In this document: positions 1-64,000 of the stretch, piece by piece
How positions within the stretch are numbered: position 1 is the stretch's first letter
Layout of the letters: the number at the start of each line of letters is the position of its first letter
Source of the DNA: Pontibacter virosus
GTDB taxonomy: Bacteria; Bacteroidota; Bacteroidia; Cytophagales; Hymenobacteraceae
Direction: 5' to 3'
NCBI RefSeq assembly: GCF_003096355.1
Contig: NZ_QEKI01000011.1
Coordinates: forward strand, 1-64,000
DNA: 64,000 nucleotides
Made by a program: the position numbers and the translations under genes
The notes under the pieces: model-generated
Database searches by the model: none
Told to the model about the DNA's origin: nothing
What the model saw: the letters and a program-made list of their open reading frames with translations, nothing else

Positions 1-188
1 CTGGATAAGGGTAGGCTCTTTTTTTTCATCTTAAATTAGAAGTTAAATGTGAATCCAAAAGATAGCCCTTATCCGCTGCTTTTTAAAACCAGCTATCGAA
101 GGTTTAGTGCAACAAGGTTTATACCTTATGCTTCGGCTGATAGCCTCGCACAATGTATACACGAGACGTTGGACCAAAATCAAACAGA

Positions 189-1445
189 ATGAAGAAATTT
201 TATGTACTCCCGTTGCTAGCGTTTATCACTATACCATCTTATGGGCAAAGTCAAATTAAGAAGTATGTTGAAAGCAACGCTATTTCAATCAACTCCATAC
301 AACCTGATTTTGCCGACTATACTGATCTGGAGCCGATAGGAAAAGCTATTGGGGACGCCAGAATAGTAATGCTTGGTGAGCAGGGGCACGGGGACGGTGC
401 AGCGTTCCTGGCTAAAACAAGGCTTGTTAAATACCTACATGAACAGAAAGGGTTCAATGTGATAGCCTTTGAGGGTGATTTCTTCGGATTGAACGCTGGT
501 TGGGACGAAATACGTAAGGAGCGGGAACAGATCAGTAAGTTTCTTTATGATAATGTCTACACGGTCTGGACTAGGAGCAAGCAGTGCAGCGACCTGCTAT
601 ACGATTACATCCCCGGATCCTACCAAACTAACATCCCTCTAAAAGTAACAGGATTCGACATACAACTTTATCTAGACCATTCTGCTAGGCATTTAAAGAT
701 TTATATCGACACATCACTGCGGCAAACAAATATCGCGTTCGTTAAAACTAAAGCCTATCAAGATGAATTTCTTCCTGCAGTAGAGGGGCTGACCAAAGGA
801 TGGTTGGTCGGTAAAGAGACAGAGCTGAAGGTGCTAGAAGATCATGTTGCTGTGATTCTAAACCAACTGGGAGATCGTAATAACGAGTACAACTGGCTCT
901 TGCTTAAGAACATCCAATCATTCGCAGCCGCTAATCTTGCAGCCAGAAATCACCATGAAGCCACTGAAATAAGAGACAGGCAAATGGCAGAAAATTTAGA
1001 ATGGCTTGTGCGGAAGAAGTTTCCAAATGAAAAGGTGATCGTGTGGGCCGCAAACGCCCATGTTTCCAAGAATGCAACCACAGCATTCAAGTTCAAAAAC
1101 TCAAGGAAAAACTGGATGGGAACTATCTTCACCAGCGACAGCCTAAACAACGCCTCCACTTATGTGCTTGGTATTGCTTCCAGAAGCGGCGTGCATCAGA
1201 ACGTGCTAGAGCCTACACCTACTAAAGTTAACGCCCCACAGAAGAAGGGCCTTGAGAATTAGGTCGACAAGAGCCAACAATATGCTTTTATAGATTTCAG
1301 GAGTTTTAGAAAGGAGAATCCTTCTTATAAAGACCATTTTATGATGAAAGGGCACGGCCACAGCAGCAATTATGCTGATTGGACAAAGGTTTTCGACGGT
1401 ATTTTCTTCATTAGAGAAATGTTTCCGAGTGAGAGAATAAAATAG
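189..1445 (+). pseudogene. Erythromycin esterase family protein, interrupted by an in-frame TAG
   Basis: Family members hydrolyse the macrolide lactone or act as succinoglycan-type esterases. The motif GEQGHG at residues 63-68 and the following FNVIAFEGDF stretch mark the family. The ATG at 189 is preferred over the one at 153 because it begins a signal peptide (MKKFYVLPLLAFITIPSYGQ), so the product would be exported. A TAG at 1260-1262 ends the frame, but the same frame continues without shift to a TAG at 1443-1445 and codes a plausible C-terminus (MKGHGHSSNYADWTKVFDGI). The whole would be about 418 codons, the usual family size. Either a nonsense mutation has inactivated the gene, the first 357 codons suffice, or the base is an error. 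The DNA is more AT-rich than that beyond 2.2 kb. Family call is firm; the specific substrate is not. Confidence 0.8.
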
Positions 1446-1538
1446 ATCTTAGTTCAACAAAACCTATAAGGTAGCTACGCCACCGCAAAGCCTAGTACGT
1501 TAATGGTGATTTTTACAGACAATAACTAAAACTTAAAT

Positions 1539-2171: not shown

Positions 2172-2235
2172 ATCCACTAAAAACTTCGCACGGGCATTAG
2201 TGGGCTAATAGTTGTAAACTAACCTTTCAACAAAG

Positions 2236-2697: not shown

Positions 2698-2701
2698 CTT
2701 T

Positions 2702-3826: not shown

Positions 3827-4205
3827 TTTGTATCACTTAGAGTTGCCTCATGTCACGGTTAAATCATCAATGTGGCATTACGCCAGGGGCAGAGGTTCAA
3901 ACGCGCCTGTATCAGGTAAAGGATGCTGTTTCATGGCTTCTCACAATTGCTCTTGTTTTATACCGGGCGCAGGCAGATTGGTTTTGGGTTTCTGTAGCCG
4001 CTCAGGTATAGCCGCAGCCATTTTTGGTGCCAAATGGTGCTTTTAAAAAACATTTGTGCAAGCTTTCCTCAAAAGGCATGACAAATTCACTTACAAAATT
4101 TATATTAGCAGTTGGGCATACTTACTGTAATTCCCGTATACCTGCGTCTGTCGGGGAGGCGTTGTTCTCCTTGCCGACACAAGGCTTCTTTTAACATCTG
4201 AAAAC
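3827..4205. promoter_or_regulatory. Divergent intergenic region with a leader hairpin before ppk1
   Basis: 379 bp between the divergent acyloxyacyl hydrolase and ppk1 genes. I see no coding sequence. A hairpin at 4149-4179 has arms TGTCGG/CCGACA with an inner GGAG/CTCC stem, 26 nt before the ppk1 ATG, so it would lie in the 5' leader. No clean TAnnTTTG promoter element is seen. Copies of GGTATA/TATACC occur here too. Confidence 0.4.
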
Positions 4206-7328: not shown

Positions 7329-8681
7329 TTATTCGCCGGACTGTACCCATCCGAGTCTGCCGTCGGGCTGGCGAACCAGATCAAACTGTCCGTTAACAGC
7401 CACCACAGGTATAGCGGCTCCCACCGGCAGACTGTCCATTTGCCCGGCATCCGGGTGCGCAGCATCCAGCAGCGGACGCTCCTGATCTAGCTTCTTGACA
7501 GTGATCGGTTTGGCTATACCTTCCACAAGTGAACTGATAATATAAGCTTCTGACTGATCGGGCAGGCGCACACGGTACCAGTTGTTAGCAGCACCCACAA
7601 CCTGCAGTGGGGTGTTTTTGCTGAGAGAGGTATGCAGCCCGGCTTTGGCCGAAGGCTCTGTCCGAACATTAGCCATTTTGGACGAGACCCGCACCCAGTT
7701 GCCGATGTGGGCAGCATCCACTTTTACGGTAGGTACAGGTGCCGCGGATTGATGCACGTAAGGGTAGGGGTTGGTAGCACCGTGGCCGTAGCGGTATATG
7801 CCAAAGTGCAGGTGCGGGCCAGTTCCTCTGGCGTTGCCGGTATTGCCAACCAGCCCCAGTGTATCGCCTACGCTAACGCGCTGCCCGGCTGAAACCAATT
7901 GCTGATCCAGGTGCGCATAGTACAGGTTCTGGCCGCGGTTCGTATCCGAAAGCCAGATGACCTTGCCACCGCGAGGCGTTTCGCTTACCCGTGACACCAC
8001 CCCATTTACCGAAGCGATAACGGGGGTGCCACGCGGTGCGAAAATGTCGATGCCTTCGTGACTACGGGCTCCTGCGTCGCGCGGGTCACCCCAGATGCTG
8101 GCAATGTGCCGGCTCGACTTTCCAGGTATAGGAAAAGCCAGTGTAGGCTGCGCTTGTATGGTGATGGTATAAGTGCCACCCCGCAGCAACTCAGGCTGTA
8201 TTCGCAGCAGGTGGGCCATGTCTTCATCAACCACATAGGTCAGGGTGGTAGCGGCTGTATCGGCAGAGGCAATACGTATAGGTGCTGCTGTGGGGTCGGA
8301 GCTAGCCTCAAACAAATCCATAAACACCTGCATGGTCTGGCGGGCTTTCATCTCCAGGTTCACCACCAGCTTCTCGCCGCGCTTGGCCTCTACTCTGTAA
8401 CCAAGCGCCCGTGGTTTGTCGGCCGGGAAATAGCCAGTTTCCTTGAAAGGTAATGTAACAGGGGTGGGCGTTTGCAAGGCCGTCTGCCCCGCCGCCAGCC
8501 AGTCCTGTCCCACGGCGGTCTCATCGAGCTTAGCAGTTTTCAAAGAAGAGACATAGGCCTCATAGGGCGTCTCTTTTTTAAAAACCCCACGCAGAGTTTC
8601 CCGGCTTCCGCAACTGGAGAGGAAGACGATGATTAGGAAGAAGTATAAGAAGGGAGAATAGCTGATCGGCTTTCTGTTCAT
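7329..8681 (-). CDS. M23 family metallopeptidase lipoprotein with C-terminal SH3-like repeats
   Basis: A cell-wall hydrolase of the LytM/M23 type. The N-terminus has a lipoprotein signal with lipobox LSSC (C24). The peptidase domain (about residues 190-305) carries zinc ligands H208/D212 (SHEGID) and H290/H292 (HLHFG). Two bacterial SH3-like segments follow, about 330-390 (NVRTEPSAKAGLHTSL) and 395-450. It should act on peptide cross-links of peptidoglycan from a membrane anchor. The minus-strand Ppx gene follows after 111 bp; an L,D-transpeptidase gene lies divergently upstream, so this is a small cell-wall neighbourhood. Complete catalytic set, so probably active. Confidence 0.92.
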   Translation of the reverse strand: MNRKPISYSPFLYFFLIIVFLSSCGSRETLRGVFKKETPYEAYVSSLKTAKLDETAVGQDWLAAGQTALQTPTPVTLPFKETGYFPADKPRALGYRVEAKRGEKLVVNLEMKARQTMQVFMDLFEASSDPTAAPIRIASADTAATTLTYVVDEDMAHLLRIQPELLRGGTYTITIQAQPTLAFPIPGKSSRHIASIWGDPRDAGARSHEGIDIFAPRGTPVIASVNGVVSRVSETPRGGKVIWLSDTNRGQNLYYAHLDQQLVSAGQRVSVGDTLGLVGNTGNARGTGPHLHFGIYRYGHGATNPYPYVHQSAAPVPTVKVDAAHIGNWVRVSSKMANVRTEPSAKAGLHTSLSKNTPLQVVGAANNWYRVRLPDQSEAYIISSLVEGIAKPITVKKLDQERPLLDAAHPDAGQMDSLPVGAAIPVVAVNGQFDLVRQPDGRLGWVQSGE

Positions 8682-9712: not shown

Positions 9713-10250
9713 TGCCACAGCCTATACCTGGCTTTTGGTCAGTACTTACCGACTGACCGGCCAGCAGGGCATCGAGTGCCTGGCGCAGGTCACGTCCTGT
9801 TACAGGCACTTCGCTTTTTGGGCGTGCGTCGTCAAACTGTCCGTGGTAAGCCAGGCGCATGTTCCGGTCAAACACGTAAAACTCAGGTGTGCAGACTGCC
9901 TGGTAAGTGCGCGCCACCTGCTGGGTCTGGTCATACAGGTAGGGGAAGGAGAAGCCCAGCTCTTTGGCCACTTCGCGCATCTGCTGCGGACCGTCCTGCG
10001 GATAATTTACGGCATCGTTGGAGCTGATGCCCACAAAGCTCACACCCTTTTGCTGATAATCTTTTGCTACCTGAACCAGTTCTTCCAGGATGTGCTGCAC
10101 ATAGGGGCAGTGGTTGCAGAGGAACATGATCACGGTGGCTTTGTTTGAAGCGACATCCTGCAGCGAGACAAGCTGATCAGATACCGTGTCGAGCAGGGCG
10201 AAGTTGGGTGCTACAGTGCCCAGTGGTAATGCTGTGGAAACTAATGGCAT
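9678..10250 (-). CDS. Thioredoxin-family (AhpC/TSA-like) protein
   Basis: 190 residues with a redoxin fold. The start region GTVAPNFALLDTVSDQLVSLQD is typical of peroxiredoxin-like proteins, followed by a CxxC pair C45/C48 in MFLCNHCPYV and the TPEFYVFDRN strand with a cis-Pro. The C-terminus carries a third conserved Cys (GIGCGIKW). These features define a widespread group of cytoplasmic thioredoxin-like proteins whose exact substrate is unknown. No signal peptide is seen. The last 35 bp overlap the end of the convergent L,D-transpeptidase gene, so the two transcripts would be complementary at their 3' ends. Confidence 0.88.
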   Translation of the reverse strand: MPLVSTALPLGTVAPNFALLDTVSDQLVSLQDVASNKATVIMFLCNHCPYVQHILEELVQVAKDYQQKGVSFVGISSNDAVNYPQDGPQQMREVAKELGFSFPYLYDQTQQVARTYQAVCTPEFYVFDRNMRLAYHGQFDDARPKSEVPVTGRDLRQALDALLAGQSVSTDQKPGIGCGIKWKTPLAEAG

Positions 10251-12348: not shown

Positions 12349-15062
12349 AGGTTCGTAGAAGTTAAGAGTGCTACAGGAAAAGACTTAAATATTTCTGCCA
12401 GTGTTATAGCCTGCTTCGCCTGTAGCTGCTGTCCGCCAAACAACTGCTGCCATACCTGTGGTGATCCGGCCGGAAGCTCCACCGCAGTGTCGTCCCATAC
12501 CTGCTCACCCAGTGGCAGTTCTTTTTCGGAGATAATGTCGGTGAGCAGGCGCGGCACTACCACGATGCACCAGTTGTCTTCGTAGCGACGTGCAAAAGCC
12601 ATGGCACGTTTGCTGTGCTTGCCTTTTAGCCGCAACGGGATGTAGTCGCCCTGGTCAAAAAGTGGTTTTTGATCTTTACGGAGGTGTAGTACCTGGTGCA
12701 ACAGGTATAGCTTCACGCGCGCATCGGTGGGGGATGATAGCAGTTGCTCCAGCCAATCTTCAGATTGTTCACTGGTCTTTATTCCTTGTAGGAACTGCTG
12801 CCGTTGCTCGTAGTCCACAGGGCGGCGGTTGTCGGGGTCTACCAGGCTGAAGTCCCAGAGTTCGCAACCCTGGTAGACATCGGGTACGCCCGGGCAGGTA
12901 GTTTTGAGAAGCGTCTGGCAAAGTGAGTAGATCCAGCCGAAGTGGGCCGCTTTCCGGAAAAACGGACGGAAAGAAGACATGAATGCCTCGTCTTCCAGCA
13001 GCAGTTTTTTCACCAGGTCTTTGGTTGCTGTTTCATAGGCCTCGTTCGGCTCCGACCAATTGGTGTTGACCTTGGCCTCCCGGAAAGCTTTTACCAGGTA
13101 TTCCTGCACCCGCTCTACCAAGGTGTCATCCACCTTGCCATCAATTGGCATCACGCCCAGCAGAGTCTGCAGAATGAAGTAGAGGTCGTTCGCTGTCGGG
13201 CCCTTTTCCTTACTGTGCTGCTGCGCCAGTTGCATCCAGTCTTTCGCCTTTTTTTCCCATTCTTCCGGCAACTCGCTCAGTACCTGCAGGCGCGTGCGGG
13301 AGCCTTCGCCGCGTTTGGTGTCGTGCGTAGCCGTGGCATTGATGGAGTGCGGATAGGTCTGCATGCGGTATTCCATGCGCTCGTGAAAATCACGGCGGTC
13401 GAGGTTGAATACATCCGGACTGTTGCCCACTTCGTTGAGCGCCAGCAGGCGGTTGTAATTATAAAAGGTGGTGTCTTCCACGCCTTTGGCCGCCAACGGC
13501 CCTGTAAACTGCTGGCTGCGCATTACGAAGTAAAGCTTTTCCCGTCTCTTCTCTTCGCTGTCCTGATCGCCAGACTCAAACAAGGTACGCAGGTGCTCCA
13601 ACTCAGCTCTCACTTCGGGAGCTTTTTCGTGTGCAATGGCGAAGGCCTTCTCCACCACTTCCATGGCTTCTGGTGACAACGGAAAGGCATGGCCGTAGAT
13701 GCGGTATACCGGGAAAGAAGCCAGCAGGGTAGCCAGCGTATGATGCCAGTTTTTATCGTCAGCAGGTATAAGCGCACACTCGCGCAGCAGTCGCAACAGA
13801 TTCTGCAGTTCGCCCTGCATGTAGTTTTCAAGTATCAGCAGCTTCTTCTCGTACACCAGTCCCTCGTAGTCAAGGGGCGCTTCGGGCACAAGGCGGCGGT
13901 ATACCTGTGTCAGTTTGCGTTCGCCTTCGGCATCGGTATAGAGGTTGCTCACCCAAGCCAGAAAATCGTAGCCGCTGTTGCCCTGTATAGGCCAGTAGTC
14001 GGGCATGTTTTCTTCGCCCTCCAGGATTTTCTCCACCACCAGGTATACCTGCTCGCCAGCCAGTTCGCGAAGCTGCGTCAGGTACTTGTCCGGGTCAAAG
14101 AGTCCGTCGACGTGATCAACCCGCAGGCCCTGCACCAGTTGCCGCATGCAGAGCTCTTTGATGAATTGGTGATAATGGCTGAACACCTCCTCGCGTTCCA
14201 TGGCCGTGCAGATCAGATCATTGACGGTGAAAAAACGCCGGTAGTTGATCTGCTTTTCCGTTTCCTGCCAGTGGTTCAAAATGTAGTACTGCTGCTGCTG
14301 CAGTTCCCGCAAGGCTGACTCGTCATCGTTTATACCTTGCAGCACATTGGCTATACCTAGTTTTATATCCGGCTGGTCCTGTGCAGTTTGGTGGAGTGCC
14401 TTTTTCGCCTGCTCCCAGTCATTTGGCTCCAGTGTGTCATGCGCCATCAGCTGCTCCAGCTTTTGCACCTGTTCTGCCAGTTGCGCTTTGACATCACTTG
14501 GAGTGAGGTTTCCAGCAACGCGTTGCAGCAGGAAAGTATAGCTGTCGATGCTGATCGGGTATACATTGTCGAAGTAATTTAGCCGAAAGCCATGTTCATC
14601 AAATGTGACCTTGAGCTGCCCTTGTTTGATGACTTCATCCAAAGGCTCTCCGAGAAAAGGCACCATCAGCTGACCTTTAAAATCAGGATGGCTGAAGTTG
14701 ACGTCGAAGAAGGTGTAGTAGCGCGATTTCTGGCCTTTCTCCAGCACGTCCATCAACCAGGCATTGTTCGGATGGAAGGCCATGTGATTCGGCACAATAT
14801 CCTGCAGCCAGCCCATGCCATACGCTTTCAATTCTTCGGCTATTTCCTGCAGCTCTTCCATGTTGCCCACTTCGGGGTTGATCTGGTGCGGGTCTGTCAC
14901 ATCATAGCCGTGCTCACTGCCGGGACGGGCCGTGAAAAAAGGTGCGGCATAGATCGTGCTGATGCCCAGATCCCGCAGGTAGGGAAGTATGTTTTTCAGA
15001 TCTCGTAGCGTAAACTTTGGCGAGAGCTGTACTCTGTATGTGGAAGAAGGTATGTATACCAT
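12345..15062 (-). CDS. treY: Malto-oligosyltrehalose synthase
   Basis: GH13_26 enzyme that isomerises the reducing-end alpha-1,4 bond of maltodextrins to the alpha,alpha-1,1 bond, producing maltooligosyl trehalose. 905 residues, in the normal range. The N-terminus STYRVQLSPKFTLRD is diagnostic, as are the long insertions of the TreY catalytic domain. The nucleophile stretch is QGLRVDHVDGLFDP and the C-terminal GVPDVYQGCELWDFSLVDPDNRRPVDY is the family signature. It partners with treZ upstream in the same direction, though a GH57 gene lies between. No TreX debranching gene is seen in the window. Confidence 0.97.
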   Translation of the reverse strand: MVYIPSSTYRVQLSPKFTLRDLKNILPYLRDLGISTIYAAPFFTARPGSEHGYDVTDPHQINPEVGNMEELQEIAEELKAYGMGWLQDIVPNHMAFHPNNAWLMDVLEKGQKSRYYTFFDVNFSHPDFKGQLMVPFLGEPLDEVIKQGQLKVTFDEHGFRLNYFDNVYPISIDSYTFLLQRVAGNLTPSDVKAQLAEQVQKLEQLMAHDTLEPNDWEQAKKALHQTAQDQPDIKLGIANVLQGINDDESALRELQQQQYYILNHWQETEKQINYRRFFTVNDLICTAMEREEVFSHYHQFIKELCMRQLVQGLRVDHVDGLFDPDKYLTQLRELAGEQVYLVVEKILEGEENMPDYWPIQGNSGYDFLAWVSNLYTDAEGERKLTQVYRRLVPEAPLDYEGLVYEKKLLILENYMQGELQNLLRLLRECALIPADDKNWHHTLATLLASFPVYRIYGHAFPLSPEAMEVVEKAFAIAHEKAPEVRAELEHLRTLFESGDQDSEEKRREKLYFVMRSQQFTGPLAAKGVEDTTFYNYNRLLALNEVGNSPDVFNLDRRDFHERMEYRMQTYPHSINATATHDTKRGEGSRTRLQVLSELPEEWEKKAKDWMQLAQQHSKEKGPTANDLYFILQTLLGVMPIDGKVDDTLVERVQEYLVKAFREAKVNTNWSEPNEAYETATKDLVKKLLLEDEAFMSSFRPFFRKAAHFGWIYSLCQTLLKTTCPGVPDVYQGCELWDFSLVDPDNRRPVDYEQRQQFLQGIKTSEQSEDWLEQLLSSPTDARVKLYLLHQVLHLRKDQKPLFDQGDYIPLRLKGKHSKRAMAFARRYEDNWCIVVVPRLLTDIISEKELPLGEQVWDDTAVELPAGSPQVWQQLFGGQQLQAKQAITLAEIFKSFPVALLTSTNL

Positions 15063-15212: not shown

Positions 15213-17636
15213 TCATAGCTTCAGGTTTAGACTCTCATACAAGTCTTTGAACTGCCGGCACCAGGCCTCGGTTTTCTCATTTTTCTCATCCTGTTTTTTG
15301 CAGTTGGTCTCGTAAGTACTCTGCCGTATTCTGAAGGCAATGTTCTGCGACTGCCAGTACTCAGGTTGTAGCTTGGAGCCGTTGAGCACGGTGAGCAGCT
15401 CGGTCAGGTATAGCATGTGCTCCGTATCATCGGGGTTTTCCTCCAGGTAGTGCATCGCTTCTTCTACGTGGATGGTGGCTGCATAATTCACGGCGTCTTC
15501 GTCCAGTTTTACGCCCATGCGCTCTACCTCCTTTAGCAATTTGAGCACCGTGTCCACATCCACCCGCTCGGCCATCAGGGCTTCGAGCAGACGGCCTGTC
15601 ACGATGTAATCGACTGTGATTTGCAAGGGGCGCGGCAAGCTCATGTCCACGCTTTTGATGGCAGCCATGAGCGGGTAATTGTTGTCGTATACCTGCTGAA
15701 AGTCGTGCTCCAGCGCCCGCATGGTTTGCTCCAGCACCTGGTCCAGTATCTTCTTCTGGTCGTCGCGGAACAGGTGCCAGAAAGAGTAATTGTGCGACTC
15801 GAAGTGTTTGTCGAGCAGCATGATCACTTCGGTGATGTTGCCTTTGTCGAAAGCGGTGCTGAGTTCGTGGTGCAGGGTGGCGAAGGCGTCGGCGCTCACG
15901 TATTTGCGCACGCCCCCGAACAGCTGGTGATCACCGATGTGCAGCACGCCAAACGAAACGTCCACTTCCTCCCAGGTAATGGTCGAGCGGATATAGGCCT
16001 TGCCAATGGCCAGTCGCTGTCGTCCCGCTTCCAGCATTTCATAATACTCTGAGCTTGCCTTATAGCTGTAGAGTGGCAACTCATCCGGGGAGTCGGTAAA
16101 GAGTGACGACACAGCATAGTGGGCGCCCACCCGCAACAGGTCCAACTGGGTAGGCTGCACGATTTTGTAGTAGGCTTTGGAGGCGTCGCCATACTCTTTG
16201 TTGTTGCTCTTGGCCCGCTTCAGAAACTCCACAAACGTCGTTTCATAGTCTTCGCCGCTCAAGTCTTTGGCCAGTTGCAGGGCACGGGTCGCATACAAAA
16301 TGTCCTGCATGGTTTCGATACCGGTCACCTCGTCAAAAAACCAACCGCAACTGGTATACATCAGCATGGCGTGATACTGCATTTCGAGCAGTTTGAGAAA
16401 CTTGATCTGTTCGCCTTTGCTCAGGTCCCGGTCGGTATGAGTGTCAATGAATTCCCTGACCTGATTTTCATCCCGGTTCATGATCACCTGGATGTAGTTG
16501 TTGCGCGTCTGCCAGGGATCAGCGCTTAGCTTACGCATTTCCTGTTCGTAGAGCGGCTCCACCTGGTCACGTACCCAGTCAAAGGCTTCGCGCACCGGTG
16601 CCCGCCAGGCCTGGTTCCACTCGTCGTGGCCACCGGTGTGGCAGCCGCAGTCGCTGCGCCAGCGCTCCACGCCATGCATGCAGCTCCAGGAAGTGTTTTC
16701 GATGATCTCGGCCTCGTACTTAGGCGGGTATAGCTCCAGGTACTCCCCGTATATCGTGATCTTGGCCAGCTCTTCCTGCTCAATGTGGTGCAGGGCATAG
16801 GAGAGGGCCATTTCGCCGAAGCGATGGTGGTGGCCGTAGGTTTCGCCGTCGGTGGCGATGTGCATGAGCTGCGGGTCTTTGCTGTGCTCGTCGAAGGTAG
16901 TGGTGAGGCGATGTGCGAATTTCTCACCACTCTCCAGCAAACCTTCAAAGGCAATAGCCTGCGACACGGGTGCGTCGTAAAAGAACAACGAGATGGTGCG
17001 GCCCGAGGGCAGTGTACAGCGATAAGGCCGTTTCGGGTCAATCTTGGCGCCCGTCGCATCGTGCCATTCCTTTTCATCGATCCTGCGGTAGCGCCTGGCC
17101 TGATAGGGTGATAGGATCGTGAACTTGACGCCATGCTCGGCCAGCACTTCCAGCGTAGCGGTGTTGGCAGCCGTCTCCCCCAGCCACATGCCTTCGGGGT
17201 CTCGACCGAAGCGCTTCCGGAAATCATAAATGCCCCATATCACCTGCGTGTGCTGGTCGCGCTCGTTGGCCAGCGGCATGATCATGTGGTTGTATACCTG
17301 CCCCAGGGCGGCCCCGTGCCCCGAGAAGCGCTTCTGGCTTTCTTTGTCGGCATCGAGTATGGACTGGTAAATGTCGGGTGCTTTTTTCTCCATCCACTCC
17401 AGTAAGGTCGGCCCGAAGTTGAAGCTCATGCGGGCGTAGTTGTTCATAATGTCCACGATCTGCCCCTTTCCGTTTTGGATGCGGGAGGCGGAGTTGCGGG
17501 CATAGCATTCGGCGGTGATGCGCTCGTTCCAGTCGTGGTAAGGGTGCGCCGACTCCTGCAGCTCTACTTCGTTGAGCCATGGGTTCTCGCGGGGCGGCTG
17601 GTAAAAGTGACCGTGAATGCAGATGTACTTGTTCAT
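15213..17636 (-). CDS. GH57 family glycoside hydrolase with DUF3536 domain
   Basis: 807 residues. The GH57 catalytic domain (about 1-300) shows the first His block GHFYQPPRENPW, the nucleophile block EGMWLGETAAN with a Glu, and the HIATDGETYGHHHRFGEMAL block carrying the acid Asp. The remaining C-terminal 400 residues match DUF3536. GH57 members include alpha-amylases, 4-alpha-glucanotransferases, amylopullulanases and branching enzymes; the activity of this subgroup is not established. Placement between treZ and treY suggests it acts on the same glucan, possibly supplying debranched or shortened chains because no isoamylase-type gene is nearby. 150 bp separates it from treY and 109 bp from treZ. 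Confidence 0.88.
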   Translation of the reverse strand: MNKYICIHGHFYQPPRENPWLNEVELQESAHPYHDWNERITAECYARNSASRIQNGKGQIVDIMNNYARMSFNFGPTLLEWMEKKAPDIYQSILDADKESQKRFSGHGAALGQVYNHMIMPLANERDQHTQVIWGIYDFRKRFGRDPEGMWLGETAANTATLEVLAEHGVKFTILSPYQARRYRRIDEKEWHDATGAKIDPKRPYRCTLPSGRTISLFFYDAPVSQAIAFEGLLESGEKFAHRLTTTFDEHSKDPQLMHIATDGETYGHHHRFGEMALSYALHHIEQEELAKITIYGEYLELYPPKYEAEIIENTSWSCMHGVERWRSDCGCHTGGHDEWNQAWRAPVREAFDWVRDQVEPLYEQEMRKLSADPWQTRNNYIQVIMNRDENQVREFIDTHTDRDLSKGEQIKFLKLLEMQYHAMLMYTSCGWFFDEVTGIETMQDILYATRALQLAKDLSGEDYETTFVEFLKRAKSNNKEYGDASKAYYKIVQPTQLDLLRVGAHYAVSSLFTDSPDELPLYSYKASSEYYEMLEAGRQRLAIGKAYIRSTITWEEVDVSFGVLHIGDHQLFGGVRKYVSADAFATLHHELSTAFDKGNITEVIMLLDKHFESHNYSFWHLFRDDQKKILDQVLEQTMRALEHDFQQVYDNNYPLMAAIKSVDMSLPRPLQITVDYIVTGRLLEALMAERVDVDTVLKLLKEVERMGVKLDEDAVNYAATIHVEEAMHYLEENPDDTEHMLYLTELLTVLNGSKLQPEYWQSQNIAFRIRQSTYETNCKKQDEKNEKTEAWCRQFKDLYESLNLKL

Positions 17637-17745
17637 ATTTTAATGGGACAAAGGGTCATTAGACAAAGAACATGAAACGGGCAGGTATAGACCCTGAAGG
17701 CTCAGCCAAAAACAAGGACTCTACCAGGTGATGCTCGTGTCTCTT

Positions 17746-39017: not shown

Positions 39018-40067
39018 CTATTCTGTTTTGAACCCGATGCCTTTGGCTCTTTTTGCCCAGTTGTCACGCGCCCATTTCTGCATATCCTCCACGTTGTCCA
39101 TCTCGTCCATAATCTCCATGCCCAGCAGCGTTTCAATGATGTCCTCCATGGTCACGATTCCGGCCGTGCCACCGTACTCGTCCACTACCAGCGCGATGTG
39201 GTTTTGGTCTTTGAGCAGTCGACTGAAGAGCTCAGGTATAGGCATGTATTCGGTTACTACCTCAATATCACGCTTAATGCTTTTCAAGGGTAGGTTCCCC
39301 TGGTTGTCAATCAGTTTGGAAAGCACTTCGTCTTTCAGCACATAGCCATGTATATCGTCCAGACTGTTCTGGTAAACCGGGATGCGGGAAAAGCGAAGGG
39401 TCTTGGCTTGCTTGAAAAAATCGACAATCAGCATGTCTTCCTGCGCACCGTAAATAACCGTTCTAGGTGTCATCACGTGGCGCACCAGAATCTGATTAAA
39501 GCGCAGTACGTTGCGCAGTATCTGGGACTCGCTTCTCTTAAAAATGCCCTCTTTTATACCTATTTCCGCCATGGCCGTGAAGTCGGCACGGCTCAGCACA
39601 CTTTTGTCTTTGTCACGCTTCAGGCGCTTGGTAATGAACTGAGACAGTATGATGAGCGGATACAAAGGAGAGTAGATCATGATGCGCAGCGTCCTCACTG
39701 TGAAGGGCGTCAATTGCCTCCAGTAGTTGGCACCCAGTGTTTTAGGTATAATCTCGGAGAGGATCAGGATGATGATCGTGAGGATGGCAGAGATAAGGGA
39801 GAGGTACTCTTCGCCCCAAATGATCTGGGCCTGAGCACCCACACCAGCCGCCCCGATGGTGTGCGCAAAGGTGTTCACCGTCAGGATGGCAGCCAACGGA
39901 CGGTCTATATTGTCTTTAAATTCCTCAAGGTGCTTGCCTACGGTAGGGTTTTCCTGTGAGGTGATGCTTACGTGCGAGGGCGTTATGCTAAGCAAAGCTG
40001 CTTCGAGCAGAGAGCATAAAAATGAAAATACAAGTGAAATAGTAAGGTATAGGAATAGTAAACCCAT
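39018..40067 (-). CDS. CNNM/HlyC-CorC family transporter (DUF21 plus CBS pair)
   Basis: 349 residues. The N-terminal DUF21 transmembrane domain (about 1-150) shows LYLTISLVFSFLCSLLEAALLS and AILTIIILILSEIIPKTLGANY, the conserved SEIIPK motif. A CBS pair follows (about 195-320: VRHVMTPRTVIYG and LVVDEYGGTAGIVTMEDIIETLLG). Unlike many relatives it ends soon after the CBS pair and lacks a clear C-terminal CorC_HlyC domain. The family is linked to Mg or Co efflux and resistance. Stand-alone gene in the inner membrane. Confidence 0.92.
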   Translation of the reverse strand: MGLLFLYLTISLVFSFLCSLLEAALLSITPSHVSITSQENPTVGKHLEEFKDNIDRPLAAILTVNTFAHTIGAAGVGAQAQIIWGEEYLSLISAILTIIILILSEIIPKTLGANYWRQLTPFTVRTLRIMIYSPLYPLIILSQFITKRLKRDKDKSVLSRADFTAMAEIGIKEGIFKRSESQILRNVLRFNQILVRHVMTPRTVIYGAQEDMLIVDFFKQAKTLRFSRIPVYQNSLDDIHGYVLKDEVLSKLIDNQGNLPLKSIKRDIEVVTEYMPIPELFSRLLKDQNHIALVVDEYGGTAGIVTMEDIIETLLGMEIMDEMDNVEDMQKWARDNWAKRAKGIGFKTE

Positions 40068-40540: not shown

Positions 40541-40658
40541 TTCTTATCAGGTATAGCAGGGTATACAGCTCCTATACGGAAAATTCCCCTGTTTATTTTC
40601 ATACGTGAAGAGCTATGGTACGGCTACATGCCTGCTGAAGGTATACCTATACCTGGAC

Positions 40659-44811: not shown

Positions 44812-44840
44812 GTTATAAACGACAGGTATAGGTATAAAGT

Positions 44841-44872: not shown

Positions 44873-44895
44873 GTTCGTTTACAGGTATAGGGAGT

Positions 44896-46947: not shown

Positions 46948-47721
46948 ATGACATTTACAAAAACGCTAGTGCCAGGACTGCTGAGTTTTTTCCTCAGTGT
47001 ACTTATGCTTCCGGCGCAGGCGCAGGAAGAGCGGGAGGAGCTTAATACTGACAGGCCTGATAATTCACAGGGTCCCAGTGTTATTTCTCGTGGCTACGTG
47101 CAGTTGGAGGCTGGCTATAATTATCAAAAGTTAAACACCAATATCAGAACATATGCCTATCCTACAGCGCTTGTGCGCATTGGCTTGCTACAGGGTGTGG
47201 AGCTGCGCCTGCAGGGTGCCGTAAAAGATTCTGTTATCGAGAACGGATCAACTCGACATATCAAAGGATGGGGGCCACTGAGTGTCGGAACCAAAATACG
47301 ACTGTGGGAAGAAAGCGGCTGGCGTCCGGAGGCTGGCATCAGCGCTATGCTGGCGCTGCCCATTGCCAGCGAAGTGTTCAAACCCGATCATCCGGAGCCT
47401 CAGTTCGGTGTGGCTTTTAGCAATGCGCTCTCTGATAAGATGGACCTCACTTACACGGTGGGCTATGGCTGGACCAAGGGCAGCCCTGTGCGAACCTATG
47501 GTGCCAACATTACCCGGCAGTTCTTCGATAAGCTAACGCTATACCTGGAGGTGTTTGGCAGCAAAGAAAAAAACGAAACGGCAGGGCACCAGGCTGATGT
47601 GGGATTACTATACCTGTTGCTGCCCAATTTGCAGGTTGATGTGGCGGCCGGAAGGCGGCTCAACAAAGAGGCCCCGCAGCATTTTATCACAACAGGTCTG
47701 GCATTTCGGTTACCCCGTTAA
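46948..47721 (+). CDS. Transporter-like outer membrane protein (phenol MetA-type barrel)
   Basis: 257 residues. Signal peptide to about residue 26 (LMLPAQAQEER), then LNTDRPDNSQGPSVISRGYVQLEAGYNY, the typical opening of the MetA-pathway phenol degradation/transporter barrel family (PF13557), and a C-terminal TTGLAFRLPR. Strand pattern is that of an outer-membrane barrel. It sits 12 bp before the TIGR02587 gene and likely heads the operon leading to cyanophycinase. Substrate unknown. Confidence 0.78.
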   Translation: MTFTKTLVPGLLSFFLSVLMLPAQAQEEREELNTDRPDNSQGPSVISRGYVQLEAGYNYQKLNTNIRTYAYPTALVRIGLLQGVELRLQGAVKDSVIENGSTRHIKGWGPLSVGTKIRLWEESGWRPEAGISAMLALPIASEVFKPDHPEPQFGVAFSNALSDKMDLTYTVGYGWTKGSPVRTYGANITRQFFDKLTLYLEVFGSKEKNETAGHQADVGLLYLLLPNLQVDVAAGRRLNKEAPQHFITTGLAFRLPR

Positions 47722-55020: not shown

Positions 55021-55854
55021 ATGAATCCTGAAATGGACCTGTTTTTTATAAGCCCGCTTGACGCCCCGCTGCAGGAATATTTTGAAAGCCCTGACCGGGA
55101 AGATTACTTTGAAATTGCCTGGCTGAAGGATGAGGAACCCATTCATTTTATAAAAGAGGGTACATCCCGCATCAAGGGAGACTGGCTATACCTGATCCCG
55201 GCCAACCGCTCTCCCCGTCCCAGAAAATCAGGCAAAAAAGGGACGCTGCTCGCCTTCCACAAGTCGGTGCTGGATTATGAGGTAAAAGAGTTTACTTTGG
55301 ATGTGATCAGGCTTTTTTTGGGCAAAGGGGCTGGTAGTTTCTCTACTATCCTGCTGGAAGAGGAGATGGCCGTAACTTTGGAGAGCATCCTTTGGATCAT
55401 TAAAGACGAGTATGAGCAGCAGCAAGAGAATTTCCTGGTGCTTAAAGCGCTGCTGAAGGCATTTTTATTGAAGCTAATGCAGTATAAGGTACAGACCTTA
55501 ACCAGACAGGGGCTTAATGAGAAACGGGTGTACCATTTCCTGCTGCTGCTGGAGCACCACTTCAGGGAAGAGAAAGCGGTGGCGTTCTATGCCGATAAAC
55601 TGAACATTACCCCCAAACGTCTGAACCAGATCCTGAAGCAAAAGACCGGAAAAACAATCACGCAGTTGCTGCAGGAGCGCCTGGTAGTGGAGGCCAGGCA
55701 GCAGCTTATCGCCAGCGCAAAGACGATACAGGAAGTGGGCTATAGCCTTGGTTTTGATGACAGATCCTACTTCAGCAGGTTCTTCAAAAAAATGACCGGA
55801 CAGACGCCGGAGCAGTTCCAGAAACAAGCCAAGGAGCGTATTTTTCCTGTCTAA
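55021..55854 (+). CDS. AraC family transcriptional regulator
   Basis: 277 residues. N-terminal sensor part (1-150) of cupin-like strands (DWLYLIPANRSPRPRK) and C-terminal double helix-turn-helix at about 180-270: FYADKLNITPKRLNQILKQKTG then IQEVGYSLGFDDRSYFSRFFKKMTGQTPEQF (each part of the AraC signature). It is divergent from the aldehyde dehydrogenase gene with 225 bp between, so that gene is its likely target, with the aldehyde or an alcohol as a possible signal. ATG at 55021 is followed by a second at codon 5. Confidence 0.92.
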   Translation: MNPEMDLFFISPLDAPLQEYFESPDREDYFEIAWLKDEEPIHFIKEGTSRIKGDWLYLIPANRSPRPRKSGKKGTLLAFHKSVLDYEVKEFTLDVIRLFLGKGAGSFSTILLEEEMAVTLESILWIIKDEYEQQQENFLVLKALLKAFLLKLMQYKVQTLTRQGLNEKRVYHFLLLLEHHFREEKAVAFYADKLNITPKRLNQILKQKTGKTITQLLQERLVVEARQQLIASAKTIQEVGYSLGFDDRSYFSRFFKKMTGQTPEQFQKQAKERIFPV

Positions 55855-55905
55855 TGTATAGCAAGCAATATCATGCTGAAGGGGCTTCAGGTATAGCGCA
55901 AACAA

Positions 55906-57441: not shown

Positions 57442-57720
57442 TTATTTCAGTGCTTTATCCAGCATATCGCCCAGGTCGCTCACACCTAAGGTGAACATAA
57501 ACAGCACAATGGCCAGTATGATCTTAACCACCACAGGTATAGCGAAGCCGAGGTGGCGCTTCAGATAGGTGTTGGCCGGTGGGAGATAGACGAGCGAGAG
57601 CAACAGGTATACGAGCCCGGGCACAGGATGTACCAGTACCAGGTTCAGGACTCCAACGGCTGCTACTACCAGGCCGAAAAACCAGCCGAGCAGGGGATAG
57701 GTCAAGGTATGGGCTTTCAT
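57442..57720 (-). CDS. Small membrane protein, 92 aa
   Basis: Three hydrophobic segments (LLGWFFGLVVAAVGVLNLVLV, GLVYLLLSLVYLP, GFAIPVVVKIILAIVLFMFTLGV) and a short acidic C-terminus (DLGDMLDKALK). Not recognised as a named family. Last gene of a same-strand run of small membrane proteins with 11 bp to the preceding gene, so it is part of the operon headed by the winged-helix regulated genes at 59-60 kb. Confidence 0.62.
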   Translation of the reverse strand: MKAHTLTYPLLGWFFGLVVAAVGVLNLVLVHPVPGLVYLLLSLVYLPPANTYLKRHLGFAIPVVVKIILAIVLFMFTLGVSDLGDMLDKALK

Positions 57721-60099: not shown

Positions 60100-60723
60100 C
60101 TAGCGTTCGTATTTAAAGTACACCAGCGCGCCATACACAATGTGCAGTATGCCAAAGCCCAACGTCCAAAGCATCAGACCATAGCTGACAAACACACTGG
60201 CAACCAGGCCAAGGATGATTTGGATGATGCCCAGATAACGAATATCACCCAAGGTATACTTGCTGCCGTTGAGTAAAGCCAGGCCATAAAAAACGAGCAT
60301 GGCTGGCGCTACCAGGTATAGAATGCCATGGTAGAGCAGAACGGCACAAAAAACACCACCTGCAGCCAAAGGTATAGCCAGGTTCACCAGCAGTCGCTTC
60401 GATTGGTTGTCCCAGGTGCGCTGGTTCTTCTTGCGGGCATTGCGCGCCGTGAAATAGGTGGCCGTTCCGAAAGCCAGCACCAATACACCGACAGCTATCG
60501 CCAATACAAACAGTACGTTCTCACGGCTGAAGTTACTGGCCATATCATTGTAATAATTGATGTTGTGCTGGCTAAAGTACCACTTCACCACCGCCGCACC
60601 TATCAGTGCCGACAAGCCTGCAAAAACGCCGGACAATCCGCTCAGGGAGATAAAGCGGGAAGAGCGATCCATGATGTTGCGGATCTCGTGCAGGGCTTCT
60701 AGCTGGTCTTGCTGCTGATTCAT
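60100..60723 (-). CDS. Membrane protein co-transcribed with the winged-helix regulator
   Basis: 207 residues. Soluble start (QDQLEALHEIRNIMDRSSRF) and about six membrane segments (LSGLSGVFAGLSALIGAAVVKWYF, VLFVLAIAVGVLVLAFGTAT, LAIPLAAGGVFCAVLLYHGI, YLVAPAMLVFYGLALL, YLGIIQIILGLVASVFVSYG, WTLGFGILHIVYGALVY). The pairing with a winged-helix protein is common in Bacteroidota, but function is unknown. ATG is 9 bp from operator 2, and the promoter gives a very short leader. Confidence 0.72.
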   Translation of the reverse strand: MNQQQDQLEALHEIRNIMDRSSRFISLSGLSGVFAGLSALIGAAVVKWYFSQHNINYYNDMASNFSRENVLFVLAIAVGVLVLAFGTATYFTARNARKKNQRTWDNQSKRLLVNLAIPLAAGGVFCAVLLYHGILYLVAPAMLVFYGLALLNGSKYTLGDIRYLGIIQIILGLVASVFVSYGLMLWTLGFGILHIVYGALVYFKYER

Positions 60724-61025: not shown

Positions 61026-61121
61026 AGCTATACTTGCGAGAATCGAGTATACCTGAATTATTATATACCTACCTTAAGCAGCTGGACCTAACCGAATCAA
61101 CTATACCTGTCCCGAAACTAA

Positions 61122-61161: not shown

Positions 61162-61189
61162 ACAGGTATAGCAGATGCTTCGATTCAGG

Positions 61190-62155
61190 CTATTTCTCCA
61201 TCTCCTTCAGTTTAGCAGGCTTCTTCAACTTCTCAGACTCCCACAGGGCTACAAACGGTTCTTCATCGGCTGCCTGGTAGCCGCGCTTCATAAAACCGGT
61301 ATTGAACCCGAAAGCCGCCTTACCAGTAGTGTCCATCGATAGGATGCCGCGGTCGCCTTTCAATTTATCGGCATGCAACTGAATGGCTTTTTCAGTGGCT
61401 GACTGCAGGGAGTTATCGGCATACTTCATCATGGCGTATACCTCGTGCGCGAGCACACCGCGCATAATTGCCTCGCCCTCGCCGGTGCAACTCACAGCGC
61501 ATACCTCGTTGTTGGCAAAGGTGCCCCCGCCGATAATGGGTGTATCGCCGACGCGTCCTTTCATCTGGTTAGTCAGTCCGCCGGTGGAGGTGGCCGCTGC
61601 CAGGTTGCCGTTGATGTCCAGGGCAACAGCACCCACCGTGTCGGTCATGGAACCGGGCATGGCTTTCTTCCCTGCCTTTTCCTGCTGCTTGTCAAGCCAG
61701 GCCTCTCTTTTCTCAGGTGTCACGAAGTACTCCGGCCCTTTGAGTGGCAGGTTGTTGGCAAGGGCAAATTCCTCGGCACCGGTACCCACCAGCAGGCAGT
61801 GTTTGCATTTCTGCAGAATTACCTTAGCCAGACTAATGGGGTGCTGCACATACCGCACACCACCTACTGCCCCAACCCGAAGGGTATTGCCGTCCATAAT
61901 GGCGGCATCGAACTCAGTCTCTCCCCGCTGTGTCAGACTGGCGCCACGTCCGGCATTGAACATGGGGTTGCGCTCCATGCTGTTGACGGCAGCCTCTACT
62001 GCATCCAGGGCGCTGCCGCCTTTTCCCAATACATCATACCCTTCTTTCAGAGCATCGGCCAGGCCCTGTCTGTACGCTTCTTCTTTTTTCTTATCAAGTT
62101 CGCCGGGCTTTAGGGTTTCTGCGCCGGCGTGTATCGCAATTGCATATTTCTTCAT
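61190..62155 (-). CDS. iaaA: Isoaspartyl peptidase / L-asparaginase (Ntn hydrolase)
   Basis: Hydrolyses beta-aspartyl dipeptides, including beta-Asp-Arg released by cyanophycinase. 321 residues from the ATG at 62155 (MKKYAIAIHAGAETL), which matches the family N-terminus; a frame upstream to 62248 adds a doubtful Ala-rich stretch. NPMFNAGRGASLTQRGE, and the self-cleavage/nucleophile motif MTDTVGAVALD with T173, then TSTGGLTNQMKGRVGDTPIIG. No signal peptide, so the mature enzyme is likely cytoplasmic. It lies downstream of cyanophycin synthetase on the same strand, 125 bp apart. Confidence 0.93.
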   Translation of the reverse strand: MKKYAIAIHAGAETLKPGELDKKKEEAYRQGLADALKEGYDVLGKGGSALDAVEAAVNSMERNPMFNAGRGASLTQRGETEFDAAIMDGNTLRVGAVGGVRYVQHPISLAKVILQKCKHCLLVGTGAEEFALANNLPLKGPEYFVTPEKREAWLDKQQEKAGKKAMPGSMTDTVGAVALDINGNLAAATSTGGLTNQMKGRVGDTPIIGGGTFANNEVCAVSCTGEGEAIMRGVLAHEVYAMMKYADNSLQSATEKAIQLHADKLKGDRGILSMDTTGKAAFGFNTGFMKRGYQAADEEPFVALWESEKLKKPAKLKEMEK

Positions 62156-62280
62156 ATTCGTTTTTTCGTTTGGTGTAGCCTCCGGAATTGCGAGGCGAGC
62201 TATACCTGGTTTTAACAGGGCATAACCCAGCGCTGCAGCGGCTGCCACCTGGTTTTAGCGGCCGCCGGAGAAACGTTGCT

Positions 62281-64000
62281 TTAGAATGAATCCTGCTCGA
62301 GTGAGGAGATGTGCCGGTGCTCAATGATGCGGAAACTCTCCACCATTTTTACAGACTCCGGTATGTCTTCCGAAAACAGGGCGATGAAGGCACCCTCCGG
62401 GGCATACTCCATGGCATGGGCCAGGGCGCGACTTTCCTGGTTGATCTCAGTGATTTTCATATCAGGCTTCACCGATATGATGCCTTGCTTGAGCAGACTG
62501 TTGATCTCGTGTCCGGGTTTGCCGCGCAGGTCCTTGTCCTGCCGGATGATAATCTCGTCAAAGGTCTCGGCTGCAATGCGGCCGATCTCGATGGTATCTT
62601 CTTCCTGCCGGTCGCCTACACCCGCCACGATGCCAATTTTGTAGGTAGCATGCACATTGTCGATAAAGTCGGTGATGGCCTCCATGCTGGCAATGTTGTG
62701 GGCATAGTCGATGAGCACTTCATAGCGGGGCAGCTTGAAGAGATTCATGCGGCCCGGCGTGGTTTCGGCGGAAGGTATAAAGGTGCGCAAGGCGGTTCTG
62801 ATCTCGGGTATCTCGAAGTGGTTGATATACCCGGCCAGGGTGGCAGCCAGCACGTTCTGAATGTTAAAGCGGGCACGTCCACCAAAGGTCAGCGGAATAT
62901 CCGCCACCCGGTCAACCCGGATCTTGTAGGTGTTCTTAAAGATGGAAATATACCCATTCTCCAACACGGCAGCCAGTCCACCTTTGCTGATGTGCTGCAG
63001 AATGCGCGGGTTGTTTTCATCCAGACTGAAGAAGGCCACCTTACAGGAAAGGCCGGTCGCCATTTCAAACACCAGGTCATCGTCCGCATTGAGCACAGCA
63101 TAGCCGCTCGGGCACACCGTGCGCGGGATCACCGCCTTCACCTCGGCCATTTCCTCTACCGTGTTGATGTCGCCGAGTCCCAGGTGGTCTGCCGACACGT
63201 TGGTTACGATGCCGATATCGCATTGCCGGAAGGCCAGGCCGGAGCGCAGCAAGCCACCCCGGGCGCACTCCAGTACCGCGTAGTTCACCGTAGGGTCCTT
63301 GAGTACGAACTCGCTGCTATAGGACCCGGTGGTATCGCCTTTGATGATCTTCTTGTCCTGGATGTAAATGCCGTCGGTGGTGGTATAGCCTACCTGATAA
63401 CCCTTGAACTTGAGCATGTGTGCCACCAGGCGGGTGGTGGTCGTTTTGCCGTTGGTACCGGTAATGGCCACAATAGGTATACGGGTCGGGCTGCTGTGCG
63501 GAAAAAGCATGTTGATGATCGGCTCCGCTACGTTTCTGGGCAAACCGTCTGTCGGGGAGATGTGCATGCGCAGGCCGGGAGCAGCGTTCACCTCGATCAC
63601 GGAACCTCTTGTTTCGGGTAGCGGGATGGCAATGTCGGTCGTCATTACATCAATACCGCATACGTCCAGCCCGATGATGCCGGCGATGCGCTCGGCCATG
63701 AGCACATTGTAAGGATGCACCAGATCCGTTACGTCGGTGGCTGTGCCGCCTGTGCTGAGGTTGGCCGTACTCTTCAGGTATAGCACTTCGCCCGCAGGCA
63801 ACACCGACTGCAGCGTCAGGCCTTTTTCCTTGATCAGGTTGCGGGTATGCTTGTCGACTTTGATGTGGGTGAGCGCCTTTTCATGCCCTATACCTCTTCT
63901 GGGGTCTTTGTTCACCTCCTTCACTAGTTGCTGTATGGTCGAGATACCGTTGCCGGTGACCATGGCGGGTGTACGTTTGGCAGCGGCAGTGAATTTGCCA
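62281..64000 (-). CDS. cphA: Cyanophycin synthetase, C-terminal part (runs off the window)
   Basis: ATP-dependent synthesis of multi-L-arginyl-poly-L-aspartate. The frame is open to the window edge at 64000 (GKFTAAAKRTPAMVTGNG precedes the internal Met at 63963), so the start lies outside. Seen are the end of the ATP-grasp domain (DVCGIDVMTTDIAIPLPE, VIEVNAAPGLRMHISP) and the Mur-ligase-like domain with P-loop AITGTNGKTTTTRL, ECARGGLLRSGLAF and VLIDYAHN. About 572 residues visible of the usual 870-880. The first ATP-grasp half cannot be judged from this window. Confidence 0.95.
   Translation of the reverse strand, partial: GKFTAAAKRTPAMVTGNGISTIQQLVKEVNKDPRRGIGHEKALTHIKVDKHTRNLIKEKGLTLQSVLPAGEVLYLKSTANLSTGGTATDVTDLVHPYNVLMAERIAGIIGLDVCGIDVMTTDIAIPLPETRGSVIEVNAAPGLRMHISPTDGLPRNVAEPIINMLFPHSSPTRIPIVAITGTNGKTTTTRLVAHMLKFKGYQVGYTTTDGIYIQDKKIIKGDTTGSYSSEFVLKDPTVNYAVLECARGGLLRSGLAFRQCDIGIVTNVSADHLGLGDINTVEEMAEVKAVIPRTVCPSGYAVLNADDDLVFEMATGLSCKVAFFSLDENNPRILQHISKGGLAAVLENGYISIFKNTYKIRVDRVADIPLTFGGRARFNIQNVLAATLAGYINHFEIPEIRTALRTFIPSAETTPGRMNLFKLPRYEVLIDYAHNIASMEAITDFIDNVHATYKIGIVAGVGDRQEEDTIEIGRIAAETFDEIIIRQDKDLRGKPGHEINSLLKQGIISVKPDMKITEINQESRALAHAMEYAPEGAFIALFSEDIPESVKMVESFRIIEHRHISSLEQDSF

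Follow-up and report, generated by a model that had tools for sequence, protein, structure and literature searches.

Uptake sequences are known from the Neisseriaceae, where they come in dialects, and from the Pasteurellaceae; the iterated words called highly iterated palindromes (HIP) are known from cyanobacteria. Here, an iterated word is described from the Bacteroidota. The starting point is a single stretch of DNA, positions 1 to 64,000 of contig NZ_QEKI01000011.1 of Pontibacter virosus, which is called the window throughout. An earlier note on the window had drawn attention to the hexamer GGTATA and its complement TATACC; the longer word that contains it, AGGTATA, is the subject of this work. 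The PPK1 gene in the window has Pontibacter species as its nearest named relatives, which fits in substance the placement of this DNA in the Hymenobacteraceae, the family to which we take Pontibacter to belong.

The word runs through the whole genome, is conserved more strongly than the DNA around it, takes other forms in relatives, two of which replace each other in place, and is missing from some lineages. Our best guess, held with less than even confidence, is that it is a self-recognition tag resembling a DNA uptake sequence (DUS). Full-text searches limited to open-licence papers turned up no report of such a word in the Bacteroidota. In the Neisseriaceae, the DUS dialects share an invariant CTG core (PMC3630211).

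A ten-base word in excess

The window of 64,000 bases holds 80 copies of GGTATA and 81 of TATACC, or 161 together, where Markov models of order 0, 1, 2, 3, and 4 lead one to expect 28.8, 15.0, 38.2, 75.5, and 124.6. By order-2 z (19.9), this class is the first among 2,079 hexamer classes; by maximal-order z, it is the third. The over-representation on both strands claimed in the earlier note is therefore real, the two strands are indeed balanced, and the excess survives the third-order model proposed there as a check, standing 2.1-fold above it. Against the maximal-order model, the hexamer is up just 1.3-fold, because its own pentamers are inflated as well.

The hexamer itself, however, is not the unit. 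The context logo around GGTATA is flat save for an A at -1 (0.62 bits), a C at -2, and a G at +6; thus, the effective unit is AGGTATA within CAGGTATAG, and it is the heptamer, with C before it and G after it, that carries the signal. The window has 109 copies of AGGTATA/TATACCT (51 on the plus strand, 58 on the minus) and 31 of CAGGTATAG. Orthologous conservation, described below, spans about 10 bp, giving cAGGTATAGc as the element. It is asymmetric: AGGTATAG is not palindromic, and the window's 109 copies of AGGTATA compare with 3 AGGTATACCT palindromes.

Nor is the excess peculiar to the window. In 124 kb of the genome from which the window comes (G000), AGGTATA is found 213 times (18.8 expected) and AGGTATAG 107 times (3.6 expected), an excess of about 30-fold for this octamer. 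The entire genome (4.88 Mb in 42 contigs) contains 2,028 copies of CAGGTATAG (978 + 1050), while the reversed control is found 22 times (9 + 13).

Dialects within the genus

Fifty genomes of the genus were sampled, and their words were sought de novo by 7-mer statistics on 14-124 kb of each. The fold values of the three main words, which run from 7- to 24-fold overall, compare the heptamer with its order-2 expectation. Dialect A, AGGTATA, is spoken by 12 of the 50 genomes, all in a single clade (9.7- to 15.8-fold); CAGGTATAGC is a sequence bearing this word, the window's own, as distinct from the B and C words. Dialect B, AAGTATA, is found in 20 genomes on several branches (7.0- to 21.9-fold). 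Dialect C, AACTATA, is found in five (15- to 24-fold), including G015, which also carries the B word at 4.3-fold. Two genomes, G013 and G046, are bilingual in B and C. Other words are TATATAR in G036 and, weakly, GGTATA/GGGTATG in G042. The remaining nine genomes (G008, G014, G017, G028, G030, G034, G037, G038, and G048) have no clear word.

Counts in whole genomes give the same picture. Those of CAGGTATAG are bimodal over the 50 genomes (1,073-2,518 in 12, 56-411 in 38). The degenerate word ARSTATAR exceeds its reversed control 4.5 to 15.8x in 39 genomes and 1.0 to 3.6x in 11; among these 11 word-poor genomes, G017, G042, and G038 look decayed rather than word-free.

The dialects follow the phylogeny, taken from a codon tree of PPK1, a single gene whose tree has several weak nodes. 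Nine Fitch changes suffice, whereas 1,000 shuffles need 26.6 on average and never fewer than 21. In both bilingual genomes, the two words are intermingled among neighbouring sites as chance would have it (109 against 109.3 expected, and 45 against 45.1); in G015, the mixing is slightly below random (52 against 61.9).

Placement in and between genes

The excess might, of course, be an artefact of codon usage, amino acid content, or local mutation bias, and the modest figure against a model that contains the hexamer's own pentamers can be cited in favor of this. Genes were taken as greedy longest open reading frames (ORFs), with no annotation used, and shuffled synonymously 100 times in a way that keeps every protein and the codon usage of each gene. 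In the coding DNA of the window (49 ORFs), GGTATA is seen 122 times versus 30.5 ± 5.5 in the shuffles, the highest of which reached 43; AGGTATA is seen 78 times versus 9.1. The B word in four genomes (106 versus 11.5) and the C word in five (259 versus 44) behave likewise, and AGGTATA in four no-word genomes leaves a small residue (19 versus 10.8). The word is read in every frame and in both orientations, all six classes lying above the shuffle, so codon preference, which the earlier note had wished to see checked, does not account for it. Further, a 626-kb sample of dialect A has 1.53 sites/kb inside ORFs and 3.60/kb outside, where nine no-word genomes have 0.24/kb and 0.18/kb; in dialect C, the density between genes reaches about 7 sites/kb. 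A codon or frame artefact is ruled out by the synonymous shuffles, and a Markov artefact is ruled out for orders 0-3. With the conservation of orthologous sites and the dialects added, an artefact of any of these kinds is extremely improbable.

Spacing tells us something of a different explanation, in which the sites bind a nucleoid or architectural protein that is abundant and drifts in its specificity from one species to the next. The gaps between sites are near random in A (coefficient of variation 1.07); B (1.22) and C (1.46) show more clustering. This, the presence of sites on both strands, and the TATA/TA core would suit such a protein. Its loss from some lineages, however, would be odd for an essential chromosome protein, and nucleoid proteins are only rarely known to impose a 10-bp word at such excess. 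We think this explanation unlikely.

Site density differs less than about two-fold among tandem, convergent, and divergent spacers. Sites sometimes overlap: 10-bp palindromes number 34 in A, 25 in B, and 52 in C, and direct overlaps spaced by 6 bp number 17 in A and 12 in B.

Polarity was judged from local GC skew. The G-rich and C-rich strands carry 397 and 395 sites in A, 225 and 216 in C, and 311 and 235 in B. The argument made earlier against a polarity signal like KOPS, the motif that orients FtsK, thus stands for A and C, which have no polarity, and must be softened for B, which has a mild bias. The strong leading-strand polarity of a KOPS/FtsK motif is seen in none of the three, and this candidate was rejected.

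Polarity is less informative about the strongest rival to the uptake interpretation, a role like that of Chi. Here, the N-terminus of an AddB-like protein would read the word, and a helicase-nuclease would then switch from degrading DNA to repairing it; self DNA would be rich in the word, and foreign DNA would not. The strand skew of Chi is not significant in B. subtilis, S. aureus, or H. influenzae and is thus not universal (PMC5959072), so missing polarity does not exclude Chi. Two points stand on the other side. Known Chi words are stable, one serving L. lactis and three Streptococcus species, and E. coli Chi is enriched four- to eightfold (PMC5959072), not 30-fold as here.

Conservation and switching of sites

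The sites of the window were compared with those of 11 other A genomes at 78-86% identity; the results on conservation, neighbours, and switching share orthologous sites and ancestors and are not independent of one another. Of 483 aligned orthologous sites, 354 (73%) retain the complete word. This places it first among 140 7-mers of the same A+T content, whose median is about 30%, and fourth among 1,487 overall, the ranking being confined to 7-mers with 60 or more aligned occurrences. From offset -1 to +8, identity runs at 0.88-0.94; outside this span it averages about 0.80, though individual flanking positions reach 0.88, and random positions give 0.83. Thus, the word is maintained against drift. 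Neisserial DUS also show conserved sites with ordinary flanks (Treangen et al., PMC2397512).

How sites decay bears on a third alternative, in which the word is the target of an orphan methyltransferase and its sites are both created and kept by biased mismatch repair, as has been proposed for HIP1. HIPs have comparable density and are replaced by other words in relatives (PMC4390886), which speaks for the parallel. Words that differ from the A word by one base at position 4 or 5 are depleted whatever the substitution (observed/expected 0.42-0.78); transitions and transversions are both affected, which is not what a single mutational step would leave. Results at position 6 vary (0.53-1.73), and in B and C depletion is not found consistently. 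Further, the word is asymmetric and not a palindrome. This alternative is, in our judgment, improbable. A Vsr-like single-step repair bias was also considered and rejected, as G-to-A neighbours are not depleted.

A G at position 7 is tolerated in A, B, and C (2.3- to 4.3-fold). A possible gain of sites by recombination, and not by point mutation, was looked for among changed sites: 27 of 109 have at least three mismatches, compared with about 15% of control 7-mers, but these sites are too few and non-independent.

Many sites carry, in a relative, the word of another dialect. Where sites of A genomes are compared with B genomes (2,459 comparisons), the B word is found in 19.4% and the A word in 10.3%. 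In 11 no-word or other-word genomes (1,311 comparisons), the B word is found in 3.8% and the A word in 15.8%. The A and B words thus switch in place at many sites. The C word is read at 4.8% of 336 comparisons of A sites.

Word-poor DNA and genome size

The few samples of accessory replicons and of probably imported DNA are poor in the word, as they would be in a DUS. In three B genomes, the B word was counted on second replicons, sampled over 20-40 kb each. Its density is 0.42 per kb in G001:C2, 0.15 in G002:C2, and 0.30 in G020:C2, against 0.88, 1.2, and 1.8 per kb on the respective chromosome samples.

In the window, the AT-rich block at 1-2226 (GC 0.41) has one AGGTATA. The earlier observation that the AT-rich start has few copies is correct: positions 1-2200 have 0.91 GGTATA/kb and the rest 2.57/kb. 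The block finds no alignment in the loci of four other A genomes, whose sequence extends about 4 kb upstream of PPK1, and is probably a recent import that has not yet acquired the word. It encodes an erythromycin-esterase-family gene and an HD-domain gene. The remaining unaligned blocks of the window are not word-poor; most of their length has no comparison sequence.

Genomes poor in the word are larger. The 11 word-poor genomes average 5.71 Mb and the 39 word-rich ones 4.59 Mb, from rounded sizes, and independent contrasts on the PPK1 tree relate genome size to the word with r = -0.57 (p = 1.3e-5).

Sites and genes of the window

The 109 heptamers and 161 hexamers lie scattered on both strands of 1-64000. 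The full 9-mer CAGGTATAG is found on the plus strand at 4003-4011, 7406-7414, 8123-8131, 12702-12710, 15405-15413, 17682-17690, 39233-39241, 40548-40556, 44823-44831, 44882-44890, 55888-55896, 57534-57542, 60313-60321, 61163-61171, and 63775-63783. On the minus strand, it is found at 2640-2648, 9722-9730, 17832-17840, 19014-19022, 23101-23109, 26555-26563, 27417-27425, 31105-31113, 32322-32330, 36539-36547, 40647-40655, 47539-47547, 47608-47616, 55186-55194, 61101-61109, and 62200-62208.

Some sites are compound. The palindrome AGGTATACCT, which gives one site per strand, lies at 2351-2360, within the DUF302 gene, and at 14041-14050. Two direct copies overlap as AGGTATAGGTATA at 44824-44836 on the plus strand. 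At 40639-40654, three sites overlap, the palindromic AGGTATACCT at 40639-40648 being joined by a tandem AGGTATAGGTATA on the minus strand at 40642-40654. Two of the examples quoted earlier, 2352-2357 and the adjoining pair at 44825-44836, are present as described; at 40638-40655, the hexamer is repeated as described, with three GGTATA/TATACC matches rather than two.

A glycogen and trehalose block occupies 10843-31000. It contains glycoside hydrolase 77, alpha-amylase, GH57/DUF3536, GlgE, an amylase-maltokinase fusion, a branching enzyme, and a trehalose-phosphate synthase/phosphatase fusion.

Words in sister genera

Outside the genus, ARSTATAR is not the word: among 150 genomes drawn from five further genera of the family, no ratio exceeds about 1.4. 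Other words take its place. ACCTAGG is found in 5,096-8,746 copies in 8 of the 150 genomes (controls 5-203) and at intermediate counts in others; in samples, CCCTAGG is found in G094 (47 against 3.1) and GGGTAGG in G090 (28 against 3.8). The iterated word of G172 and of Hymenobacter fodinae (L037) is TGGCCTAG. Iterated words of their own are found in Hymenobacter species or sister genera at L028, L030, and L037 and in G052, G061, G073, G090, G094, G106, G137, G172, G178, G180, and G184. For the sister groups g4 and g5, the Hymenobacter-type label comes from named loci that have the same words. Several of the 17 loci analysed for words had no convincing one, and the sample of G184 shows none although this genome is rich by whole-genome count.

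Two observations were made after the fact. Most sister-genus words fit N-NN-TA-NN, and TA stands at a fixed place in most words across dialects and genera, which recalls the CTG core of the DUS dialects.

More distantly, 22 kb of an uncultured Chitinophaga (L077) has a weaker excess of similar words (GGTATA 54 against 23.7, ACTATA 35 against 10.2). In 22 kb of Adhaeribacter aerolatus (L029), the palindromic AATATT is found 55 times against 18.8 expected.

Candidate readers

A methyltransferase that reads the word might be expected to be found where the word is found. Three families were searched, PF01555, PF07669, and PF02086, and none tracks the word. PF01555 is found in 31 of 50 genomes and is missing from 2 of the 12 A genomes and 4 of the 5 C genomes; PF02086 is found in 13; PF07669 at more than 100 bits is found in 23, of which four are no-word genomes. 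The earlier note had left open uptake-like, methylation, and structural roles. Of these, an uptake-like or self-recognition role fits best, and methylation by these families has lost ground. What the methylation alternative does have is a PF01555 match (frames of 505-696 aa) found in seven dialect-A genomes (G003, G012, G019, G024, G031, G040, and G041), where it lies 10-12.4 kb upstream of PPK1.

The Chi-like alternative has a candidate reader. An AddB-like PDDEXK_1 protein with an open frame of about 970-1,020 aa is found in 50 of 50 genomes; two of these proteins, when scanned, matched the addB models weakly, far below their cut-offs. Its sequence was compared in 20 genomes (12 B, 4 A, 1 A2, and 3 no-word). 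Four residues near the N-terminus, 57, 73, 74, and 80 in G000 numbering, separate A from B. They are T, Y/H, A/S, and R in all 12 B genomes and N, S, G, and T in all four A genomes. The A2 genome differs from B at three of them, two no-word genomes differ at all four, and the no-word genome G048 is B-like. Residues 73-80 may lie near the position of the Chi pocket in B. subtilis, as a hand comparison suggests; no solved AddB structure that matches by sequence was found. It is the N-terminus of AddB that reads Chi (PMC4027173).

These residues follow, however, one split of the AddB tree, on one side of which all sampled B genomes lie; the A/B differences are therefore confounded with descent. 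Relative to PPK1, AddB residuals are 0.054-0.112 in A, 0.068 in G042, 0.003-0.05 in no-word genomes, and within 0.032 in B, and the excess divergence in A is found throughout the protein. At 0.178, the longest internal branch is common to G000, G012, and G019 (L290, L301, and L302) and is out of proportion to PPK1. It falls after the split of G032, which already speaks dialect A, and thus postdates that dialect. Last, AddB persists where the word is absent. On this evidence, a Chi-like role seems to us a serious explanation that is nevertheless probably not the right one.

An uptake-like interpretation

The mechanism that we prefer, in which the word is a self-recognition tag like an uptake sequence, would work as follows. 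A sequence-specific DNA-binding protein of the cell, perhaps a single one, would read the site of about 10 bp, cAGGTATAGc in this species. A directional force would spread this site to thousands of places and retain it there. In relatives, the specificity of the reader would change, presumably several times over the history of the genus, and the genome would follow site by site, producing dialects. The reader would most likely act in the import or integration of environmental DNA, favoring DNA of its own kind, so that the word might function in DNA uptake or transformation. Import would proceed without type IV pili and otherwise as with the uptake sequences of Neisseriaceae and Pasteurellaceae. 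Such pilus-free uptake is plausible in the phylum, since transformation of Riemerella anatipestifer, also of the Bacteroidota, uses ComEC and DprA together with new surface proteins (PMC8459023).

A number of observations weigh against this interpretation. The first group concerns machinery. No convincing pilus ATPase was found, the PF00437 matches in 50 of 50 genomes covering at most 66 of 370 positions, with three genomes above cut-off by about a bit; other pilus genes and pilins were not searched. Judged on PF00437, then, a type IV pilus with a DUS-binding minor pilin is not found, and the word accordingly cannot be counted among the DUS proper. ComEC is found in 50 of 50 genomes, word or no word. 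Its frame measures 702-736 aa in the 40 genomes examined, among which the nine no-word genomes show no acceleration of ComEC (mean residual -0.007). Outside those 40, in the word-bearing genomes G021 (G021:C1:2771217-2771876) and G041 (G041:C76:160505-161305), a stop codon interrupts the frame, which could be an assembly error. No receptor gene was found, and DUF5689, the lead from Riemerella, is present in 22 of 50 genomes without following the word. Twelve of the 22 matches, of about 413-450 aa, are all in word-bearing genomes and are missing from 27 of the 39 word-rich ones; the other ten, of about 1,100-1,300 aa, are in genomes with and without the word.

The second group concerns the sites. 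Hairpin-spaced inverted pairs like those of neisserial terminators form no prominent class in dialects A, B, or C, the largest non-overlapping class having 7 pairs (B, 54 bp). Flanks that lie in genes fall 1.7 points below matched controls in conservation (p = 0.01, 65 positions); non-coding flanks do not, standing 2.7 points above (p = 0.16, 18 positions). For B sites, the A word is found in 18.9% of 2,517 comparisons with A genomes and in 9.7% of 2,145 with no-word or other-word genomes; with this background, the excess of B-to-A switching is just two-fold. Switching from C is weaker, C sites being the B word in 4.5% of 775 comparisons versus 0.8% of 383. Finally, the second replicon of G001 is itself 3-fold enriched (17 against 5.2).

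Two side observations belong to these genes. In G009, G015, and G029, the three C genomes sampled, ComEC has diverged beyond the expectation from PPK1 (+0.10 to +0.12; L276, L280, and L281). At three loci of the shorter DUF5689 proteins, L215, L218, and L221, a neighbouring gene looks SusD-like by eye.

One may speculate further, though with less than even confidence, that the bacterial family of Pontibacter and Hymenobacter has a pilus-independent self-recognition system for DNA exchange, in which a fast-evolving reader with a TA core writes dialects private to a lineage that act as barriers to gene flow, with lineages that lose the tag having genomes about 1 Mb larger. If the word is an uptake or self-recognition tag, such tags would have evolved again without type IV pili, and this one would help to show how Bacteroidota import DNA through the outer membrane. 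In the natural series of dialect switches, including two bilingual genomes, the co-evolution of reader and genome could then be traced. Word loss with larger genomes would make the idea of a self-tag as a barrier directly testable. More practically, plasmids and cassettes written in the right dialect may aid the transformation of these environmental bacteria.

Comparison with known systems

The nearest parallel is the DUS of the Neisseriaceae. Both are asymmetric words of about ten bases in both orientations, with dialects that follow the phylogeny and, for the Pontibacter word perhaps, share a short core (PMC3630211); in both, orthologous sites are conserved with ordinary flanks, and second replicons are poorer (PMC3630211, PMC2397512). 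Unlike the DUS, the Pontibacter word comes without a convincing pilus ATPase (PF00437) or prominent terminator hairpin pairs, reaches about 7/kb between genes in dialect C, varies more between genera, and is known from sequence alone.

With the uptake signal sequences of the Pasteurellaceae, the word shares the character of an iterated self-tag accumulated in coding and non-coding DNA. It differs in its phylum, in the lack of any pilus ATPase found, and in having several dialects inside one genus. Cyanobacterial HIP1 and the alternate HIPs also have thousands of copies, sporadic loss, and other words in relatives; HIPs are, however, GC-rich palindromes tied to methyltransferases (PMC4390886), whereas here the word is asymmetric and the three methyltransferase families do not track it. 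Chi of RecBCD and AddAB is likewise a short, asymmetric, chromosome-enriched word, with a possible reader here in 50 of 50 genomes. Known Chi words are, however, less enriched and more stable, where the word described here shows dialects and loss inside one genus.

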